DNA of 64,000 bases from Paenibacillaceae bacterium (lineage in GTDB: Bacteria; Bacillota; Clostridia; Lachnospirales; Lachnospiraceae). Location of the stretch: the NCBI GenBank assembly GCA_015057705.1, contig SVDU01000026.1, positions 1-64,000 on the forward strand, read 5' to 3'. A model generated the notes under the pieces. It did not search any database. It was not told the origin of the DNA and was given only the letters and a program-made list of their open reading frames with translations. The translations under genes and the position numbers were made by a program. How positions within the stretch are numbered: the stretch's first letter is position 1; each line of letters begins with the position of its first letter. Below, piece after piece: positions 4,159 to 19,899 of the stretch.

Positions 4159-5574
4159 TTATTTTCTTTTCCATATCCCGGCAGTCAGCACCGTCATATC
4201 ATCGGCGGCACTTTCTGTAAATGATCTTGCAAATAAAAGAATCCGATCTGCCATATCCTGAGGATTCTTTATTGGCATTCCTGCAATAAATTCCTGAAGC
4301 ATCAGCTCCTTGTCATCTGCAGGAAGTGCATCTAACACGCCGTCACTTACCATAATGATCCGGTTATCATCCCACAGCTTTTTGGATAAAAGCACCGGTT
4401 CCACCGGACTTAGTATACCCATGGGTACTTCGCCTGCCTCTAAGCGTTCCACACCTCTCTCGCTGCGGATATAGGTGGCCGCTGCTCCCAGCTTCATGGC
4501 TTCCATGATTCCAGTTTTTAAATCGATGCAGCATAAGTCAAGGGTTGCCGGATGCTGGGTCAGTCCGGTAAGAAGTAGTACGGTATTTACCATTTTCAGC
4601 GCTGCCCTGGTAGAAAATCCAGCTTCCAGCAGTCTCTGGGTCAGCTCGATCACCTGTCTGCTCTCTTCCTCTGCTATTTTACCGCTTCCCATGCCATCAG
4701 ACAGACTCATAATAACCTGTCCGGGCTGAACCTGTCCAAATGTATAGTTATCTCCGGAAATCTCTTCTCCTGTTTTAACGGCCTTTGCAGCTCCGTAGAT
4801 AATCTGATAATCTCCCTTTTCAACAAAACGGATGGTGTCCGCTGACCTGGTAACCAGAGTTCTTCCGTCAGGTGCCACCGTCCACTCCCCTTCTTCCATG
4901 GCATCCTCTAATATATCTGCTGCTTCCTTGACCGTAACGCAGCGCCCATTTAAAGTTCTCATAGTGAGATAGGCTTCTCTCTGCTGGTTCTCATATTCCA
5001 GGAGAAGCATTTTTTCTATCACAATATGATTTTTGCGGAAAGCCCGCCTGATCTCCTCTTCCCATTCCGGTGTAATGTCAGTGGCATGCTCCACCTGATG
5101 GGAAAATTCTTCTAAAATCACTGCCAGTTCTTTAAACTGAACAATGATTGCATCCCTGCTCTCCAAAAAACGGTTCTTCCATGCAAGATTCATGGTCGCC
5201 CGTCCAAGCCCCCTGTTTAAGTGAGCCAGATATTCTTCCCTTCTTTTACAGCTTTCCAGAAAAAAACGGGGCATGTCCCCGTAATCTACGCTTCCCTTTT
5301 GTTCAAACGCACGAATTAAATACTGCAGATAGTACTGGTTGTCCTGTTCCTTACCGGGATATACGATACATTTGTTGCAGCCTGCGCATACCATTGCAGC
5401 AGCAGTCTCCAGTGCTGCTATCCCATCTTCCTTTGTAAGTCCCTGTTCTGCGGACAGTTCATCTGTGCACGCTTTGGCAAGTTCCCCAAGCGAATTTGCC
5501 ATGTCGTTTAATCTCTTTGCCGTATATACATTCACATCAGCCATATCGTGATGTGCCGCCTTACGTCTGAACAC
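4159..5574 (-). CDS. spoIIE: SpoIIE-family phosphatase lacking the membrane domain
   Basis: SpoIIE dephosphorylates the anti-sigma-F antagonist SpoIIAA and so activates sigma-F in the forespore. Seen: a central regulatory region (about residues 10-240, Cys-containing and helical) and a C-terminal PP2C domain (about 255-471) with the metal-binding motifs SGDN, LSDGMGSG, SDGVLD and DDMTVL all present. What is missing is the N-terminal part of about 320 residues with roughly ten membrane helices found in known SpoIIE. I choose the GTG at 5574-5572 because AGGAGG lies 7 bases upstream; the ATG at 5598 has no ribosome site. That gives 471 residues. Position between divIC and tilS is the expected one. 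It may act as a soluble phosphatase, or be a shortened remnant. Confidence 0.85.
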   Translation of the reverse strand: MFRRKAAHHDMADVNVYTAKRLNDMANSLGELAKACTDELSAEQGLTKEDGIAALETAAAMVCAGCNKCIVYPGKEQDNQYYLQYLIRAFEQKGSVDYGDMPRFFLESCKRREEYLAHLNRGLGRATMNLAWKNRFLESRDAIIVQFKELAVILEEFSHQVEHATDITPEWEEEIRRAFRKNHIVIEKMLLLEYENQQREAYLTMRTLNGRCVTVKEAADILEDAMEEGEWTVAPDGRTLVTRSADTIRFVEKGDYQIIYGAAKAVKTGEEISGDNYTFGQVQPGQVIMSLSDGMGSGKIAEEESRQVIELTQRLLEAGFSTRAALKMVNTVLLLTGLTQHPATLDLCCIDLKTGIMEAMKLGAAATYIRSERGVERLEAGEVPMGILSPVEPVLLSKKLWDDNRIIMVSDGVLDALPADDKELMLQEFIAGMPIKNPQDMADRILLFARSFTESAADDMTVLTAGIWKRK

Positions 5575-5579
5575 AAAAA

Positions 5580-5629
5580 TCCCTCCTGCCTGTATCATGC
5601 TTTAAATCATTATATACAGGCAGGAGGGA
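5580..5629 (-). terminator. terminator hairpin containing the spoIIE ribosome site
   Basis: A 16-bp perfect inverted repeat (5580-5595 with 5614-5629; arm CCCTCCTGCCTGTAT plus one pair) has an 18-base loop. On the minus strand the second arm contains AGGAGGG, the spoIIE Shine-Dalgarno, and is followed by TTTTT and the GTG start. In RNA coming from divIC it should act as terminator and mask the ribosome site. RNA begun in the loop lacks the first arm. Confidence 0.75.
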
Positions 5630-5641
5630 AAATTTTGTCAA
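5609..5641 (-). promoter_or_regulatory. spoIIE promoter with 21-base spacing
   Basis: On the minus strand TTGACA (5641-5636), 21 bases, then TATAAT (5614-5609). Promoters of B. subtilis spoIIE and spoIIG have this long spacing and need Spo0A~P. The -35 overlaps TTTGACA, one mismatch from the reverse 0A box (TTCGACA), and TGTCGTA at 5673-5667 is another one-mismatch 0A box. The predicted start near 5602 falls in the hairpin loop. Confidence 0.6.
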
Positions 5642-5676: not shown

Positions 5677-5780
5677 TCCTCTAATTATGTCCAAGTTTTT
5701 TGGACATCCAGGGATACCCGTAGGGTGCTCCTCTAATTATGTCCAAGTTTTTTGGACATAAAGGGATACCCGCAGAGATT
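5677..5780. repeat. 52-bp tandem duplication with inner hairpins
   Basis: Two adjacent 52-base units (5677-5728 and 5729-5780) share an identical first 31 bases and GGGATACCCG further on. Each has an 8-bp hairpin, ATGTCCAA/TTGGACAT, around GTTTT. They fill the space between divIC and the spoIIE promoter, where the missing 5' part of spoIIE would be expected. Confidence 0.85.
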
Positions 5781-6104
5781 CTACTTCTTCTGCGATGGTT
5801 TCAATAGTATTTCATCGGGTTTCACAAGCCCCAGCTTCTGCTTTGCCACTTCCTCCACATACTGCTTGGTCTGGACATATACCCGGTATTCTTCCAGTTC
5901 CTTGGCACGACTTTGCTCCTTGTCCACCTGCGCCTGAAGATTCTGCAGGCGATACTGATATTCCAGTTCTTTTTCTTTGAGCGAAGCACCTTCAATCGTG
6001 ACAATCACTGCCAGACTGAATACCACAAAGGTAATTCCAATCAAGGTCATGCGGTTGCCCCATCTATCTTTTCTTTTTCTTCTTGACTTTCCCATCTTAT
6101 TCAT
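5781..6104 (-). CDS. divIC: DivIC/FtsL-type septum formation protein
   Basis: Small bitopic division protein of the DivIC/FtsB family, part of the septal DivIB-DivIC-FtsL complex. Seen: a basic cytoplasmic N terminus (KSRRKRK), one membrane segment (MTLIGITFVVFSLAVIV), then an extracytoplasmic coiled coil rich in E, K and Q, and the typical end VEEVAKQKLGLVKPDE. I start at the ATG at 6104 (107 residues, GGTGA upstream). A GTG at 6149 would overlap yabQ by 28 bases without a visible ribosome site. It is last in the hup-rqcP-yabP-yabQ-divIC run. Confidence 0.88.
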   Translation of the reverse strand: MNKMGKSRRKRKDRWGNRMTLIGITFVVFSLAVIVTIEGASLKEKELEYQYRLQNLQAQVDKEQSRAKELEEYRVYVQTKQYVEEVAKQKLGLVKPDEILLKPSQKK

Positions 6105-6121
6105 ACAATCACCAGTTGTTC

Positions 6122-6478
6122 CTACTGCCGTCTCTTTGGACGGATCCACTTATGCATTATCATTTTAAGGTATTTCTGAAGGTTTTTCAAGGATTTTAAA
6201 AAAAACCTGCTGACCAGCCGGTCATATAAAAGCATCCCAAGAAAAATCCCGGCTATGACATATCCTCTCAATCCTCCGTCATTTTGTTCATATAACAGGG
6301 AAAATGCAACCAGTGCGGCATAAACCCAGTAAATCATGTCCTCAATTCCTGTGAATACATAAGAATGCGGAATAAATATACGGAAAATTCGAAGCAGGTC
6401 ATATGTCATCATAAGCCCTGCACCTGTAAAAAAGCTGTAGAGCAGAAGTTTTACTTCATATACGATATGAACGCTCAT
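6122..6478 (-). CDS. yabQ: spore cortex biosynthesis protein YabQ
   Basis: Integral membrane protein needed for spore cortex formation in Bacillus, where it is made in the mother cell under sigma-E. The 118-residue protein has a hydrophobic N-terminal half with about three membrane segments and a basic tail (KKSLKNLQKYLKMI region to KWIRPKRRQ). It is shorter than B. subtilis YabQ (about 211 residues), which is common in Clostridia. The gene lies 17 bases after yabP and is presumably read from the yabP promoter. Confidence 0.88.
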   Translation of the reverse strand: MSVHIVYEVKLLLYSFFTGAGLMMTYDLLRIFRIFIPHSYVFTGIEDMIYWVYAALVAFSLLYEQNDGGLRGYVIAGIFLGMLLYDRLVSRFFLKSLKNLQKYLKMIMHKWIRPKRRQ

Positions 6479-6495: not shown

Positions 6496-6780
6496 TTATT
6501 TAAACAGCCTGGACAAAAGAGACTCCCCCGACCTTCGAAGAGCTTCGTTAGAGGAATATAAAAGACTCTCTATGGTGCCATTTAAATCCACTTCCCCTTT
6601 TTCCAGGGTTAACCGGCTGACATGAAGATCCTTGCCCTTTAAAGTCAGAAGCCCCATATCCGTATCCAGTACTACCTGGTTCTCATCGAAGGATACTACG
6701 TCCCGTATTCCAGTCATCGTACTGGAAGCACGATTATCTATTGTCAGCCTGTGAGGGCGTACGCTTATTTTTTCTTCCAT
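6496..6780 (-). CDS. yabP: sporulation protein YabP
   Basis: Small cytoplasmic sporulation protein that partners YabQ in cortex assembly; the exact biochemistry is unknown. The 94 residues match the family over the whole length: RPHRLTIDNR at the start, IRDVVSFDENQVVLDTDMG in the middle, then LTLKGKDLHVSRL. The ribosome site AGGAGG, 9 bases upstream, is inside a perfect hairpin, and a sigma-E-like promoter overlaps that hairpin. The layout suggests expression is kept off in readthrough from hup-rqcP and turned on from its own promoter. Confidence 0.92.
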   Translation of the reverse strand: MEEKISVRPHRLTIDNRASSTMTGIRDVVSFDENQVVLDTDMGLLTLKGKDLHVSRLTLEKGEVDLNGTIESLLYSSNEALRRSGESLLSRLFK

Positions 6781-6789
6781 AAAGAAAAA

Positions 6790-6824
6790 CCTCCTAATAT
6801 ACCTGTATAAAGTATATTAGGAGG
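6790..6824 (-). terminator. terminator hairpin containing the yabP ribosome site
   Basis: The arms CCTCCTAATATAC (6790-6802) and GTATATTAGGAGG (6812-6824) form 13 perfect pairs with a 9-base loop. Read on the minus strand the second arm ends in AGGAGG, the yabP Shine-Dalgarno, followed by TTTTTCTTT and the ATG. This is the same layout as at spoIIE: terminator for hup-rqcP RNA plus ribosome-site mask. Confidence 0.8.
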
Positions 6825-6839
6825 CGAGCTCCAATATTC
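6811..6839 (-). promoter_or_regulatory. sigma-E-like promoter of yabP-yabQ
   Basis: On the minus strand GAATATT (6839-6833) fits the sigma-E -35 consensus KMATATT fully. After 14 bases AATATACT (6818-6811) matches CATACAHT at 6 of 8 positions. The predicted start near 6804 lies in the hairpin loop. YabP and YabQ belong to the sigma-E regulon in B. subtilis. Confidence 0.65.
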
Positions 6840-6870
6840 CTGAAATTAAACTTTTGTATCAAGTGAAAGG

Positions 6871-7110
6871 CTAAAGATAGCGATAAAGCTCTTTTGCCTC
6901 ATCTTTTTTTACGGTTTCCGCCACATCAAGAACCTCTACCTTAACCGAACTGGTGCCAAAGTGTATTTCAATTACATCGCCTTCCTTAATGTTTAAGGAG
7001 GCTTTTGCAGGTTTATCATTCACAAGCACACGGCCTGCATCACAGGCTTCGTTTGCTATGGTTCTTCTCTTAATGATCCTGGAAACTTTCAGAAACTTAT
7101 CAAGTCTCAT
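6871..7110 (-). CDS. rqcP: S4-domain ribosome quality control protein RqcP
   Basis: RqcP (YlmH/Hsp15-like small S4 protein, formerly YabO) binds 50S-peptidyl-tRNA complexes and helps RqcH add alanine tails to stalled chains. Seen: 79 residues with the S4 RNA-binding fold at the N terminus (MRLDKFLKVSRIIKRRT, then GRVLVNDKPAKAS and IKEGDVIEIHF). It begins 3 bases after the hup stop, so the two form one transcription unit. The neighbourhood hup-rqcP-yabP is conserved in Clostridia. Confidence 0.93.
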   Translation of the reverse strand: MRLDKFLKVSRIIKRRTIANEACDAGRVLVNDKPAKASLNIKEGDVIEIHFGTSSVKVEVLDVAETVKKDEAKELYRYL

Positions 7111-7113
7111 GGA

Positions 7114-7389
7114 TTATGCGTTCACCATATCCTTTAATGCCTTACCTGCTTTGAACTTTGGAGTCTTGGAAGCCGGTATATTCATTACTTCACCGCTCTT
7201 AGGATTTCTGCCTTCTCTGGCAGCTCTCTCAGATACTTCGAATGTACCAAAGCCAACTAACTGGATTTTCTCGCCCTTAACTAATTCTTCAGATATTACA
7301 TCTGTTAAAGCTTTTACTGCCTTTTCTGCATCCTTCTTGGACAGCTCTGCTTTCTCTGCTACTGCCGCGATTAACTCTGCTTTGTTCAT
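7114..7389 (-). CDS. hup: DNA-binding protein HU
   Basis: Histone-like nucleoid protein that bends DNA as a dimer. The start [13 protein letters not shown] at 7389 is typical and is preceded by AGGAGG 9 bases upstream; an upstream in-frame ATG at 7416 would add nine residues and is less likely. The 91-residue protein contains the HU signature [22 protein letters not shown], whose arms contact the minor groove. A strong sigma-A promoter lies upstream (7456-7484). It heads the hup-rqcP unit. Confidence 0.96.
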
Positions 7390-7455
7390 TGATATCTTCC
7401 TCCTAGAATGTAGCACCAGGCTACTGATTTTCTCGTTGACACGATTACTATATCA

Positions 7456-7484
7456 TTTATAGCTGTTTCTCCTGTTTTTGTCAA
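7456..7484 (-). promoter_or_regulatory. sigma-A promoter of hup-rqcP
   Basis: On the minus strand TTGACA (7484-7479), 17 bases, TATAAA (7461-7456). The -35 overlaps the mazG stop codon. This supports hup-rqcP as a vegetative unit that would read into yabP if nothing stopped it. Confidence 0.75.
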
Positions 7485-7873
7485 GGTTTTTTGCTCTTTT
7501 CACGAGCCTTCTCCTGCATTTTTATGGCATTCCAGACAGCCTCTCCCTCTTCCGACGAAATCACCTTTTTATCGCCAAAAACATGGGGATGTCTGCGGAT
7601 CATTTTCTCACAGATTCCATTCACCACATCGTCGATGGAAAAGCAGTGGCTTTCCTTGGCAATCTGGCTGTGCAGCATTACCTGAAACAAAACGTCTCCC
7701 AGTTCTTCACAAAGATTCTCCATATCCTTATTGTCAATTGCCTGGAATACTTCCTGACTCTCTTCTTCCAGATGCTTTTTTAAACTCTCGTGAGTCTGCT
7801 CTCTGTCCCAGGGACAACCATCCTCCGCCCGCAGTTTATTTGTAATATCTACTAAATCTTTAAAAGTATACAT
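7481..7873 (-). CDS. mazG: MazG-type nucleotide pyrophosphohydrolase
   Basis: All-alpha NTP pyrophosphohydrolase that hydrolyses (d)NTPs to NMPs and pyrophosphate, a housecleaning role. Seen: the MazG pattern GCPWDREQTHESLKKHL, then the metal-binding EEESQE and EELGD motifs, in 130 residues. E. coli MazG has two such domains in 263 residues; this is the single-domain form frequent in Clostridia. The ribosome site AAGGAGG is present. Located between spoVT and hup as in relatives. Confidence 0.9.
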   Translation of the reverse strand: MYTFKDLVDITNKLRAEDGCPWDREQTHESLKKHLEEESQEVFQAIDNKDMENLCEELGDVLFQVMLHSQIAKESHCFSIDDVVNGICEKMIRRHPHVFGDKKVISSEEGEAVWNAIKMQEKAREKSKKP

Positions 7874-16367: not shown

Positions 16368-16397
16368 TTGTCATAACTCCTCCCATTATGTTAAAAT
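16368..16397 (+). promoter_or_regulatory. promoter of the riboswitch-controlled gene
   Basis: TTGTCA (16368-16373), 18 bases, TAAAAT (16392-16397) with an upstream TG (extended -10). The RNA would begin about 5 bases before the purine aptamer. Confidence 0.6.
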
Positions 16398-16409
16398 AAA
16401 ACCGTTGCG

Positions 16410-16470
16410 CTTATATAAGTTCAAAATTGGTTGAACGTTTCTACCAACTACCTCAATAGTTGACTATAAG
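16410..16470 (+). promoter_or_regulatory. purine riboswitch, guanine type
   Basis: Seen: P1 CTTAT/ATAAG (16410-16414 with 16466-16470), P2 GTTCAA/TTGAAC with loop AATTGG, the invariant junction GTTTCTACC (16437-16445), P3 AACTA/TAGTT with loop CCTCAA, and GACTAT. The base that pairs with the ligand (16464) is C, which marks guanine/hypoxanthine rather than adenine specificity. The GG of loop 2 and CC of loop 3 needed for the kissing contact are present, but both loops are one base shorter than in B. subtilis xpt. No terminator follows before the start codon, so control may be at translation. Confidence 0.88.
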
Positions 16471-16497
16471 GGTTAGAAGGAAAAAGGAGTGATGTTC

Positions 16498-17989: not shown

Positions 17990-18640
17990 TTAAACTTTAT
18001 TAATTTTACTTTTTATCTCCCCCACCAAATCATGCACCGTTGTACACGGCCACATCTCCGATGGCTTCACTTTACCTTCTCTTTTACACTGCTCAATTTT
18101 CTGCTGTGCAATTCTTATCGCTTTCTCTTCATCACCGTTCTTGCAAATTCTTTTGTAAATATTGCTGTCTGCTTTGGAATACTTTTGTCCTGTTCTACTT
18201 TCATACACTTTGCCAAATTCTGAACAACACGTCCATGATTCACGCAATGCAGGCATTGAACCAAAGTAGGCATAAGTCCAGATTTCAAAGCATGGATTCG
18301 ACCAGCCTACTCCGATTTCTTTTTCTCTTGCTGCATGAATTATTTCATCGAAATCTTTCACTTGATCTCTATCAAACACAATCCAAGGCATGCGGTACTG
18401 TGCTTCATATGCTGTCAATTCCATACATTTTTCTAACATGTTACGTGTTTTGGTTTCTACTACACGAATTACAAGCTTATCTTGAATCTCATAAGGCAGA
18501 CTTTCATGTAAGCCATTAAAGTAACATCGTTCTGTAGCTTCTGTATCTGTAACAATTAGATAATACCCCAACTCAGGTGCTCTAACCTTATTGCGTTGTT
18601 CTCTTGTTTTTCGATTACCCGTTCTTTCGTCTCTTGCCAC
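17990..18640 (-). CDS. RloB-like Toprim-type protein
   Basis: RloB proteins accompany an RloA ATPase and carry a Toprim-like nuclease fold. Seen in 216 residues: a basic N terminus, an acidic cluster TEATE (about 33-37), the FDRD motif at 89-92 (DxD), and the family signature NPCFEIW at 115-121. The start lies 2 bases after the rloA stop, so the two are coupled. Such pairs are found near restriction systems and in defence islands and resemble OLD/PARIS-type ATPase-nuclease systems. An antiphage role is inference. The pair is AT-rich and bounded by terminators, which fits horizontal acquisition. Confidence 0.8.
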   Translation of the reverse strand: MARDERTGNRKTREQRNKVRAPELGYYLIVTDTEATERCYFNGLHESLPYEIQDKLVIRVVETKTRNMLEKCMELTAYEAQYRMPWIVFDRDQVKDFDEIIHAAREKEIGVGWSNPCFEIWTYAYFGSMPALRESWTCCSEFGKVYESRTGQKYSKADSNIYKRICKNGDEEKAIRIAQQKIEQCKREGKVKPSEMWPCTTVHDLVGEIKSKINKV

Positions 18641-18642
18641 TC

Positions 18643-19899
18643 TTAACCCTCCTTAAAAATGTCAATACTCTTTAAGGAGGGAATTGCGCCATACTTACCA
18701 ATCAGATAATTCTTTTCGTAACTCTCATCCTTCCTGATTCTAGTTCCATCTTCATCTATAAAATCCGCAAGTGAATATAAGGTCGATATTCCTTCATGAC
18801 TTTTTTCAGTAAACCAGATTTCATCTCGTCTAAGCAAATGATTTGATAGCTGCCAGGTATCATGTGTTGTAAATACCAACTGTGCATGATTTACATTTAT
18901 CTGTGGATTTAAAAATGTAAGAATAAAGTTTCTTACCAGTAGTGGGTGTAACCGTGCATTTAATTCATCTATAAAGAATACGCTTCCTTTGTTGATTACT
19001 TCCTGTAGCTCTGGATATAAGGCAAACATTTTTAAGGTTCCTGCGGATTCCATAGCCAATGGAATCTCTGCCATCTCATCCGAGTCTATCTTTTTATGAA
19101 GTGCATTAATTTTATATTTACCTTCTTTTGAGTCTCCCTCTACCGGAATCTTTTCAACACGAAAGTCCTTAATGTTTTCATCAAAAGATGCAAAATATTC
19201 AACTACTTCTTTTTGCACATTTTTATCTTCTACGAATTCTTTTGGTAATCTTTTTGACATGAAAAAATTGGTAATCACATCTCCAAAATCCGCAAATTGA
19301 TTTGCAAAAAACCAATCACGAATTGCTTTACATTTTGCAATCTTTAATTTGGCTCCCAAGGATATAATCAGAACCTGCTTTTCTAAAGCAACTTCTATAT
19401 TCTCTCTGCTATTCTTTGGAATACCCATAAGATCCAAAGTGTCCTCTGAACGATAAAATACAGGGCTATATTTTCTGGCTGTTTTTGCTTTTACATTTAG
19501 CCATTCTTCTGTAATACCTACATTACCAATGCAGAATCCATAGTTATATGATTTTTCACCTTTATCACCAGGTATTGTAAAATAGACTTCAAAGCTGGAT
19601 TCTGCATTTTCCGAATTACTGTCAAACAAAAATGGGGTGGGTCTATATTCTGTAAAATTTTCATCTTCGTCACCGTACTTAAATGATTCTATTATATATT
19701 CTGTCATGTATTCAAATGCATTGTAGACATTTGACTTACCACTTGCATTTGCACCATATATTGCTGCAACCGGAAGAATTTTTTCACTGCCTATACAAAC
19801 AACACGTTCTGAAAACTCAGTCATTTTGGCCGCTGATAGGTCTAATGTAGCTTCATCTTTGAAGGATTTATAATTTTTAAAATTAAACTGTATTAACAT
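18643..19899 (-). CDS. RloA-like AAA/ABC-type ATPase
   Basis: SMC/OLD-like ATPase of the AAA_15 group, the partner of RloB. Seen in 418 residues: the opening FNFKNYKSFKDEATLDLS, Walker A GANASGKS at 49-56, an ABC signature-like ESAGTLKMF at about 284-292, Walker B VFFIDELNARLHP at about 307-319, and the switch histidine in TTHDTWQL. I start at the ATG at 19899, which has GGTGAGG upstream; a start at 19941 would add 14 poorly matching residues. Promoter at 19931-19958. It probably senses a phage or DNA structure and licenses RloB. Confidence 0.82.
   Translation of the reverse strand: MLIQFNFKNYKSFKDEATLDLSAAKMTEFSERVVCIGSEKILPVAAIYGANASGKSNVYNAFEYMTEYIIESFKYGDEDENFTEYRPTPFLFDSNSENAESSFEVYFTIPGDKGEKSYNYGFCIGNVGITEEWLNVKAKTARKYSPVFYRSEDTLDLMGIPKNSRENIEVALEKQVLIISLGAKLKIAKCKAIRDWFFANQFADFGDVITNFFMSKRLPKEFVEDKNVQKEVVEYFASFDENIKDFRVEKIPVEGDSKEGKYKINALHKKIDSDEMAEIPLAMESAGTLKMFALYPELQEVINKGSVFFIDELNARLHPLLVRNFILTFLNPQINVNHAQLVFTTHDTWQLSNHLLRRDEIWFTEKSHEGISTLYSLADFIDEDGTRIRKDESYEKNYLIGKYGAIPSLKSIDIFKEG

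Follow-up and report, generated by a model that had tools for sequence, protein, structure and literature searches.

A candidate three-in-one insulator hairpin, combining terminator, ribosome-binding-site lock and internal promoter, ahead of the sporulation gene yabP

We examined a stretch of 64,000 nucleotides (the window; positions 1 to 64,000 of contig SVDU01000026.1, assembly GCA_015057705.1) from a bacterium of the family Lachnospiraceae, in which a hairpin lies in the gap between rqcP and the sporulation gene yabP. The features of this hairpin suggest a three-in-one developmental insulator that acts as an intrinsic terminator, locks the ribosome-binding site (RBS) of yabP and houses an internal promoter; judging from sequence, we put the probability of this reading at about 0.75. 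With somewhat less confidence, we propose that the mother-cell (sigma-E) regulon makes recurrent use of this superimposed promoter, RBS lock and terminator in Lachnospiraceae and, less densely, in other Clostridia, with repeated origin at unrelated genes (yabP, spoIVA, csp, spoIID, spoIIIAA, cwlD, pdaA, spoIIID and SipL-like genes) and also at spoIIE, of the Spo0A type. One element, roughly 60 nt long, would insulate these genes from vegetative transcription of their neighbors in both RNA synthesis and translation, and could serve as a signature for unrecognised sporulation genes.

In the proposed mechanism, polymerase arriving from the vegetative hup-rqcP unit would transcribe the whole hairpin and dissociate at the T run, immediately 5′ of the yabP start codon. 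Any read-through RNA would retain the full hairpin with the yabP Shine–Dalgarno (SD) sequence paired, and would not be translated. During sporulation, sigma-E polymerase of the mother cell would use a promoter whose −10 and −35/−10 spacer overlap the left arm; its RNA would begin in the loop and lack the left arm, so that neither terminator nor lock could form and yabP would be translated. The benefit would be that spore genes stay silent in growing cells despite the short gap to the upstream gene (median 89 bp). We infer the start site, sigma-E dependence, termination, translational block and benefit alike.

Read along the minus strand, the 90-base gap that separates rqcP from yabP contains GGAATA, a spacer with CCTCCT at its end, AATATACT, a loop, GTATATTAGGAGG and TTTTTCTTT, in this order, and the ATG follows. 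As a preliminary description of this DNA had stated, the arms form 13 perfect pairs, with AGGAGG in the right arm and a T tail behind it; with end pairs and a wobble counted, the pairs number 16. The sigma-E-type promoter named there, GAATATT-14-AATATACT with its −10 in the left arm, matches exactly and is the same promoter as GGAATA-16-AATATACT; the transcription start that it placed in the loop is predicted to lie near position 6804, 7 nt past the −10, the usual distance between the two. This promoter combines an ATA-type −35, a CATA-type −10 and fixed spacing at a gene of the sigma-E regulon, overlaps the 5′ strand of the stem at the motif level, and is predicted to yield an RNA that starts past the left arm. 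The stem contains GC and is directly followed by the T run, the sequence pattern of an intrinsic terminator. The long RNA (90 nt) is predicted to form a stable hairpin that holds the yabP SD in its 3′ strand, a structure supported by covariation; it folds at −28.3 kcal/mol (z = −4.75), and 0/200 shuffled sequences were equally stable. ATA-N16-MATATAMT occurs once in the window, at yabP (expected 0.16; present in 16/100 shuffles), and GGAATA-N16-MATATAMT once in the genome, again at yabP, the latter motif being derived from this site and hence not independent. Upstream, the sigma-A promoter described ahead of hup-rqcP proved to be the window's only match to TTGACA-N16..18-TATAAW (expected 0.11) and provides, at the motif level, a co-directional promoter reading towards yabP.

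A protein search with one genome per species returned 64 yabP loci (L042–L105) from Lacrimispora, Hungatella, Enterocloster-like organisms, other Lachnospiraceae and Clostridia. The stem score is at least 20 in 52 and at least 24 in 49 of the 56 loci L042–L097, while none of the eight most distant loci (L098–L105) has the nested layout, the upstream sequence of L098 being too short to judge. NNNATA stands exactly 16 nt before [AC]ATATA[CT]T in 54 of 57 leaders (the window plus 56), 17 nt before it in two, and is absent in this arrangement from L064. Just one of the 57 has more than one candidate −10, the ATATA of the −10 is invariant across 41 aligned leaders, and the left arm coincides with the promoter spacer and −10 in the relatives' leaders as well. 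Across 56 leaders, the predicted probability that the SD is unpaired is 0.00–0.22 when the RNA is folded from the −35 and 0.20–0.91 when it is folded from 7 nt after the −10. The gap between rqcP and yabP in the relatives ranges from 59 to 235 nt (55 loci, median 89 nt), and 54 of these 55 loci have no separate terminator-like hairpin between rqcP and the yabP promoter. The 6 nt directly behind the SD include at least four T in every yabP leader (56/56), against 14/183 genes in the window's own genome, where the SD-to-start spacer of other genes is A-richer than the T-rich spacer of yabP. Because the T run is conserved, we read the hairpin not just as an RBS lock but also as an intrinsic terminator. 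Among 25 genomes of the genus, the T-tailed hairpin pattern is found at yabP in 24, and G013 has a C-to-T change in an arm; T-tailed sites at spoIIE and behind thiamine pyrophosphate (TPP) riboswitch-like sequences are found in part of these genomes, together with scattered other sites.

Covariation supports the pairing of the arms. Alignment A1 comprised 41 of the 56 leaders, the 15 omitted being near-identical or odd (among them L071, with its −10 77 nt from the start). The outer stem is shifted by one base in eight leaders, and 7/7 outer pairs fit the shifted register; because these eight blur column covariation, the other 33 were counted separately (A2) and the eight were aligned as A3. 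In A1, 86.8% of cells are paired and changes on both sides of a pair number 30 versus 8.1 in shuffles, with 0/500 shuffles as high; the corresponding values for A2 are 92.4% and 22 versus 5.9, again with 0/500 as high. The covarying-pair and pair-type counts of A2 were matched by 5/500 and 9/500 shuffles, respectively. When arms were swapped between leaders without any alignment, left arms matched the right arms of the same leader better than foreign ones, with 0/10000 permutations as high at yabP (46 distinct), spoIIE (40) or spoIVA (25).

In a control at the same 56 loci, for which the best of several candidate starts was scored for each gene alike, a strong RBS hairpin (score at least 24, SD in the right arm) was found at 49/56 yabP and 38/53 scored spoIIE starts and at 0/161 starts of five neighboring genes (mazG 0/43, hup 0/38, rqcP 0/5, yabQ 0/40, tilS 0/35). 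A scan of 372 scored SD-bearing genes from the same genome (the window plus 20 pieces of 20 kb) ranked spoIIE first (37) and yabP second (31) for an RBS held in a stem; seven genes reach 24 and two reach 28, and among the 12 that score at least 20, a T run is present only at spoIIE and yabP. In a second genome, G083 (342 genes), four genes reach 24 and three reach 28, the two with a T run being an acyltransferase-like and a csp-type gene. A stem of at least 28 with a T run thus precedes four of 714 starts in the two genomes (spoIIE, yabP, the csp-type germination protease and the acyltransferase-like gene), and the equal frequency before non-sporulation genes that the preliminary description had named as refuting its reading was not seen, with the qualification that G083 was picked as a one-contig genome with covariance-model matches (below) that include this csp gene, so that the own-genome half alone is unselected. 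The acyltransferase-like gene of G083 (L286:6320-7351) has, by eye, a 23-bp stem, RBS and T tail ahead of it; the design is therefore not confined to spore genes.

Within the window, a companion hairpin lies 1.2 kb from that of yabP, at spoIIE, with the architecture that had been described: the left arm falls in the spacer of a TTGACA-21-TATAAT promoter, a spacing that we take to be of the Spo0A type. Two cases within 1.2 kb had been offered as making chance unlikely, which by themselves are a thin argument; the conclusion itself, like the nested architecture and the sigma-E-type promoter, holds through the comparative evidence, and the first and second ranks in the genome also speak against chance. 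Elsewhere in this genome, spoIVA has a weak 7-bp version (score 12), and spoIIIAA (L330, contig C5) has the parts unfused: a terminator-like hairpin (by eye) with a tail of seven T is followed by the sigma-E-like promoter GTCATA-15-CATATATT, and this in turn by the RBS. Terminator and promoter there serve the same ends as at yabP but stand side by side, not superimposed. We also observed a TPP riboswitch aptamer (L032:1501-1621, G000:C5:48470) followed by an RBS-in-terminator hairpin, T run and ATG. This platform resembles the yabP element in having the RBS in the right arm, a T run and a start codon directly after it; what opens it is an alternative fold under the control of a ligand, with no role for an internal promoter, so that it may be seen as a ligand-responsive equivalent to the element at yabP.

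We built a covariance model (R1) from 33 yabP leaders and ran it on 200 genomes of the family, 110 of which gave a match at E ≤ 0.1. Taking all listed matches to E 0.0029 gave 90 distinct sites after removal of four opposite-strand duplicates, including 24 at yabP (assigned by blast) and 33 at other sporulation or germination families; the latter make up 33 of the 53 non-yabP sites that have an open reading frame (ORF). These 33 comprise spoIVA (11), csp-type protease (7), spoIID (4), genes for SleB/SpoIID-domain proteins (4, which we label SleC-like), cwlD (2) and one each of spoIIIAA, pdaA, pdaB, cotS and spoVAD, the last a forespore gene that does not fit the sigma-E pattern. Curated cut-offs are exceeded by ten of the 11 spoIVA matches and by those of spoIIIAA and spoVAD; the four spoIID matches score above the cut-off for the SpoIID/LytB domain model. 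For csp, SleC-like, cwlD, pda and cotS, the scores fall short of the spore-specific cut-offs, in one cwlD (L216) by far. A T run is present in 14/14 non-yabP matches with a usable spacer (26 tried), a count that is circular because the model includes the T tail. In a scan that began from spoIVA itself, a strong nested stem is found at 14/27 scorable orthologues (best 30 of 43 matches; three of the 30 loci unscorable, and L254 and L259 probably scored at a start other than that of spoIVA), spoIVA being present in 43/60 family genomes. The upstream gene is co-directional at 24/28 recurrence sites, opposite at three (by a crude ORF finder) and without an ORF at one; two of these 28 (L201 and L243) are outside the 33 sporulation-family sites.

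Beyond the family, a match at E ≤ 0.003 was obtained in 32 of 196 Clostridia genomes. We read 29 loci that were new; an ORF in the right place was missing from 13 of them, and the genes identified include two spoIIID, two SipL-like genes and one yabP. According to PMC517825, sigma-E controls yabPQ, spoIVA, cwlD and others in Bacillus subtilis; PMC3789822 places spoIID, spoIIIAA, cwlD and csp of Clostridioides difficile under sigma-E and sleC under sigma-K, and gives an ATA motif as the sigma-E −35. Genes for TIGR04086/DUF3792 membrane proteins (L209, L229, L303, L308 and, by blast, L312) carry the nested sigma-E-like hairpin in genomes of the family and of the class, which makes them candidate sporulation genes. 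A folT-type gene (L224, TIGR04518) and a transporter gene similar to it by eye (L309) have an RBS-in-terminator hairpin that is perhaps a riboswitch platform.

Several other explanations of the yabP hairpin must be weighed. The hairpin might only end the hup-rqcP transcript, with the yabP RBS and promoter inside it merely through the short gap and with no translational lock. We regard this as possible but doubtful: a T run follows the stem in 56/56 leaders, the hairpin is the sole terminator candidate in 54/55 rqcP-yabP gaps, and a separate terminator appears by eye to serve spoIIIAA in the same genome; yet compactness does not demand an SD in the stem, and the SD is predicted to be buried in the long RNA of all 56 leaders (at most 0.22 unpaired). 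Terminator and lock are hard to separate by sequence, because the stem itself physically brings about the lock. Conversely, the hairpin could be an RBS lock of the T4 gene e type, with frequent read-through and translation blocked without termination. Predicted burial of the SD agrees with this, and T4 gene e, whose hairpin has a late promoter within its 5′ strand (PMC3014915), offers a precedent, but two findings make a lock without termination unlikely: the T run is conserved far above genome background, and in 54/55 loci the stretch from rqcP to yabP has no second terminator-like hairpin. We give little credence to a riboswitch-like attenuator under ligand or protein control, in which RNA would start upstream and a switch would open the hairpin in sporulation. 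The same RBS-in-terminator hairpin does stand behind the TPP riboswitch of this genome; however, no Rfam family was found at yabP at gathering scores, the gap is just 59–235 nt, the promoter elements are conserved inside the hairpin, and the aligned leaders (about 60 nt shown) have no conserved block 5′ of the −35. Similarly improbable, and marginally more so, is a DNA palindrome that serves as operator for a dimeric protein, such as a sporulation repressor. The inverted repeat overlaps the promoter, and SpoIIID represses yabPQ in B. subtilis (PMC517825), but the arm sequences vary between lineages while pairing is kept, including the one-base register shift in eight leaders; because operators keep sequence and not just complementarity, this disfavors an operator. 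Chance or compositional coincidence at a single locus is hardly credible: although CCTCCT-N8..38-AGGAGG is not over-represented in the genome (11 per strand vs 15 in the control), conservation and covariation across relatives refute it.

A number of observations weigh against the insulator reading or its generality, the lack of over-representation just given among them; by eye, the long stems among those CCTCCT/AGGAGG sites are yabP, spoIIE, a near-palindrome in contig C5 and a site at 18648. At yabP itself, the upper stem is A-T rich, and the short RNA retains structure (−8.6 kcal/mol in 54 nt) in a predicted fold that surrounds the start codon. The SD of the short RNA is about 0.43 unpaired in the leaders most like that of the window. 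The covarying-pair and pair-type counts of A1 were matched by 53/500 and 155/500 shuffles, respectively; with the partner moved by −1, double changes are as numerous or more so (22 in A2, 38 in A1), although just 40–44% of cells then pair; and the shuffle and permutation tests leave relatedness in. The clear nested design is present in this genome at yabP and spoIIE only, and the model finds yabP alone down to E 10, besides the TPP-riboswitch site (E 3.4). In the family, 90/200 genomes have no match at E ≤ 0.1, some of which are probably non-sporulating. Among the 90 model sites, seven precede unrelated genes (dGTPase, dndB, an ABC transporter, two transposases, folT and alcohol dehydrogenase), 13 have no ORF and 13 are unassigned or ambiguous; the unassigned include L176 and L201, which resembled SpmA and SpoIIM by eye with no Pfam or NCBIfam match, and L243, which resembles L204 and has no Pfam match. 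The model includes the −35 and −10 bases and so favors sigma-E promoters by construction; the list therefore shows recurrence among sigma-E-type genes, not exclusivity. At spoIVA, all 27 callable upstream genes are co-directional, whether the hairpin is present or absent.

The three-in-one insulator proposed here has relatives among known systems. Long early RNAs of phage T4 gene e (also soc, 49 and I-TevI) hide the RBS in a hairpin, and late promoters over its 5′ strand give short RNAs that lack the hairpin and are translated (PMC3014915). The yabP element shares this escape of a hairpin-held RBS by an internal promoter; in contrast, the T4 case belongs to a phage, and the accessible text of that source describes no T run or terminator role, no sigma-E and no sporulation programme. 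The B. subtilis sigG (spoIIIG) gene has a read-through hairpin with the same escape logic (PMC5942855, citing Masuda 1988 and Sun 1991), but it is a single gene with a sigma-F/G promoter, and the accessible text describes neither a fused terminator nor recurrence at sigma-E genes. We found no description of the terminator-fused recurrent form in the open-access literature, most subscription journals being outside the scope of the search. Thus, the escape logic is known, and the fusion with a terminator and the recurrent use appear to be new.

Coordinates of the elements and of their neighbors are collected in the table. The minus-strand order is mazG-like gene, hup, rqcP, yabP, yabQ, divIC-like gene and spoIIE. 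We chose the ATG at 7389 as the start of hup, for which the ORF list has a GTG at 7416; the name rqcP is taken from the preliminary description and fits by position. If yabPQ are insulated, the divIC-like gene needs a separate vegetative promoter, and TTGAAA-17-TAAAAT within the 3′ end of yabQ (6162-6190, minus strand) could be one. The gap between the divIC-like gene and spoIIE (5678-5776) contains CTCTAATTATGTCCAAGTTTTTTGGACAT...GGGATACCCG in two near-identical copies, each a small hairpin. The SpoIIE product aligns to positions 310-762 of the 764-position SpoIIE model, so that the N-terminal membrane half seems to be missing; the genome has only one second match to this model, a weak one (29 bits). 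At 18647-18681 on the minus strand, a CCCTCCTTAAAGA/TTTTTAAGGAGGG stem holds an RBS in its right arm, without a T run, before a GTG ORF (17990-18640), and has the joint third score in the own-genome scan. A purine riboswitch aptamer lies at 16391-16486 on the plus strand (57.8 bits).

Table. Features of the yabP and spoIIE hairpins and of the surrounding genes, in order along the minus strand.
Feature	Position	Strand	Evidence or remark
mazG-like gene	7481-7873	minus	
hup promoter, sigma-A-type, TTGACA-17-TATAAA	7456-7484	minus	motif match
hup (HU), at the head of the upstream unit	7114-7389	minus	HU/IHF models, scores below their cut-offs
rqcP, S4-type RNA-binding protein, upstream neighbor of yabP	6871-7110	minus	weak Hsp15/TlyA matches, below cut-off
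Sigma-E-type −35, GGAATA	6835-6840	minus	sequence; GAATATT of the preliminary description = 6833-6839
Left (5′) arm, CCTCCTAATATAC, complementary to RBS	6824-6812	minus	sequence; covariation
Sigma-E-type −10, AATATACT, within left arm, last base in loop	6811-6818	minus	sequence
Loop, TTTATACAG	6811-6803	minus	sequence
Right (3′) arm, GTATATTAGGAGG, with yabP SD AGGAGG at 6795-6790	6802-6790	minus	sequence, folding
T run, TTTTTCTTT, putative terminator tail and SD-to-start spacer	6789-6781	minus	
yabP ATG	6780-6778	minus	
yabP, sporulation protein	6496-6780	minus	TIGR02892, 89.4 bits vs cut-off 75.4
yabQ, next gene 3′ of yabP	6122-6478	minus	TIGR02893, 80.7 bits vs cut-off 32
divIC-like gene	5781-6149	minus	no NCBIfam match; named by position
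spoIIE promoter, TTGACA-21-TATAAT, left arm in spacer	5609-5641	minus	sequence
spoIIE hairpin, right arm with AGGAGGG, then ATTTTTGTG	5580-5629	minus	sequence, folding, own-genome scan
spoIIE	4159-5574	minus	GTG start at 5574

Spore formers must silence their spore genes in growth, though some of these lie just tens of bases downstream of highly active housekeeping genes. If the reading proposed here is true, many Clostridia use one short element to cut incoming RNA, hide the ribosome site and start their own RNA internally. The recurrent, terminator-fused version would then amount to a general principle of how sporulation genes are arranged, beyond single-gene cases such as T4 lysozyme and B. 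subtilis sigG, and the element would allow uncultured bacteria to be searched for unknown sporulation genes, besides being a compact part for constructing insulated genes.
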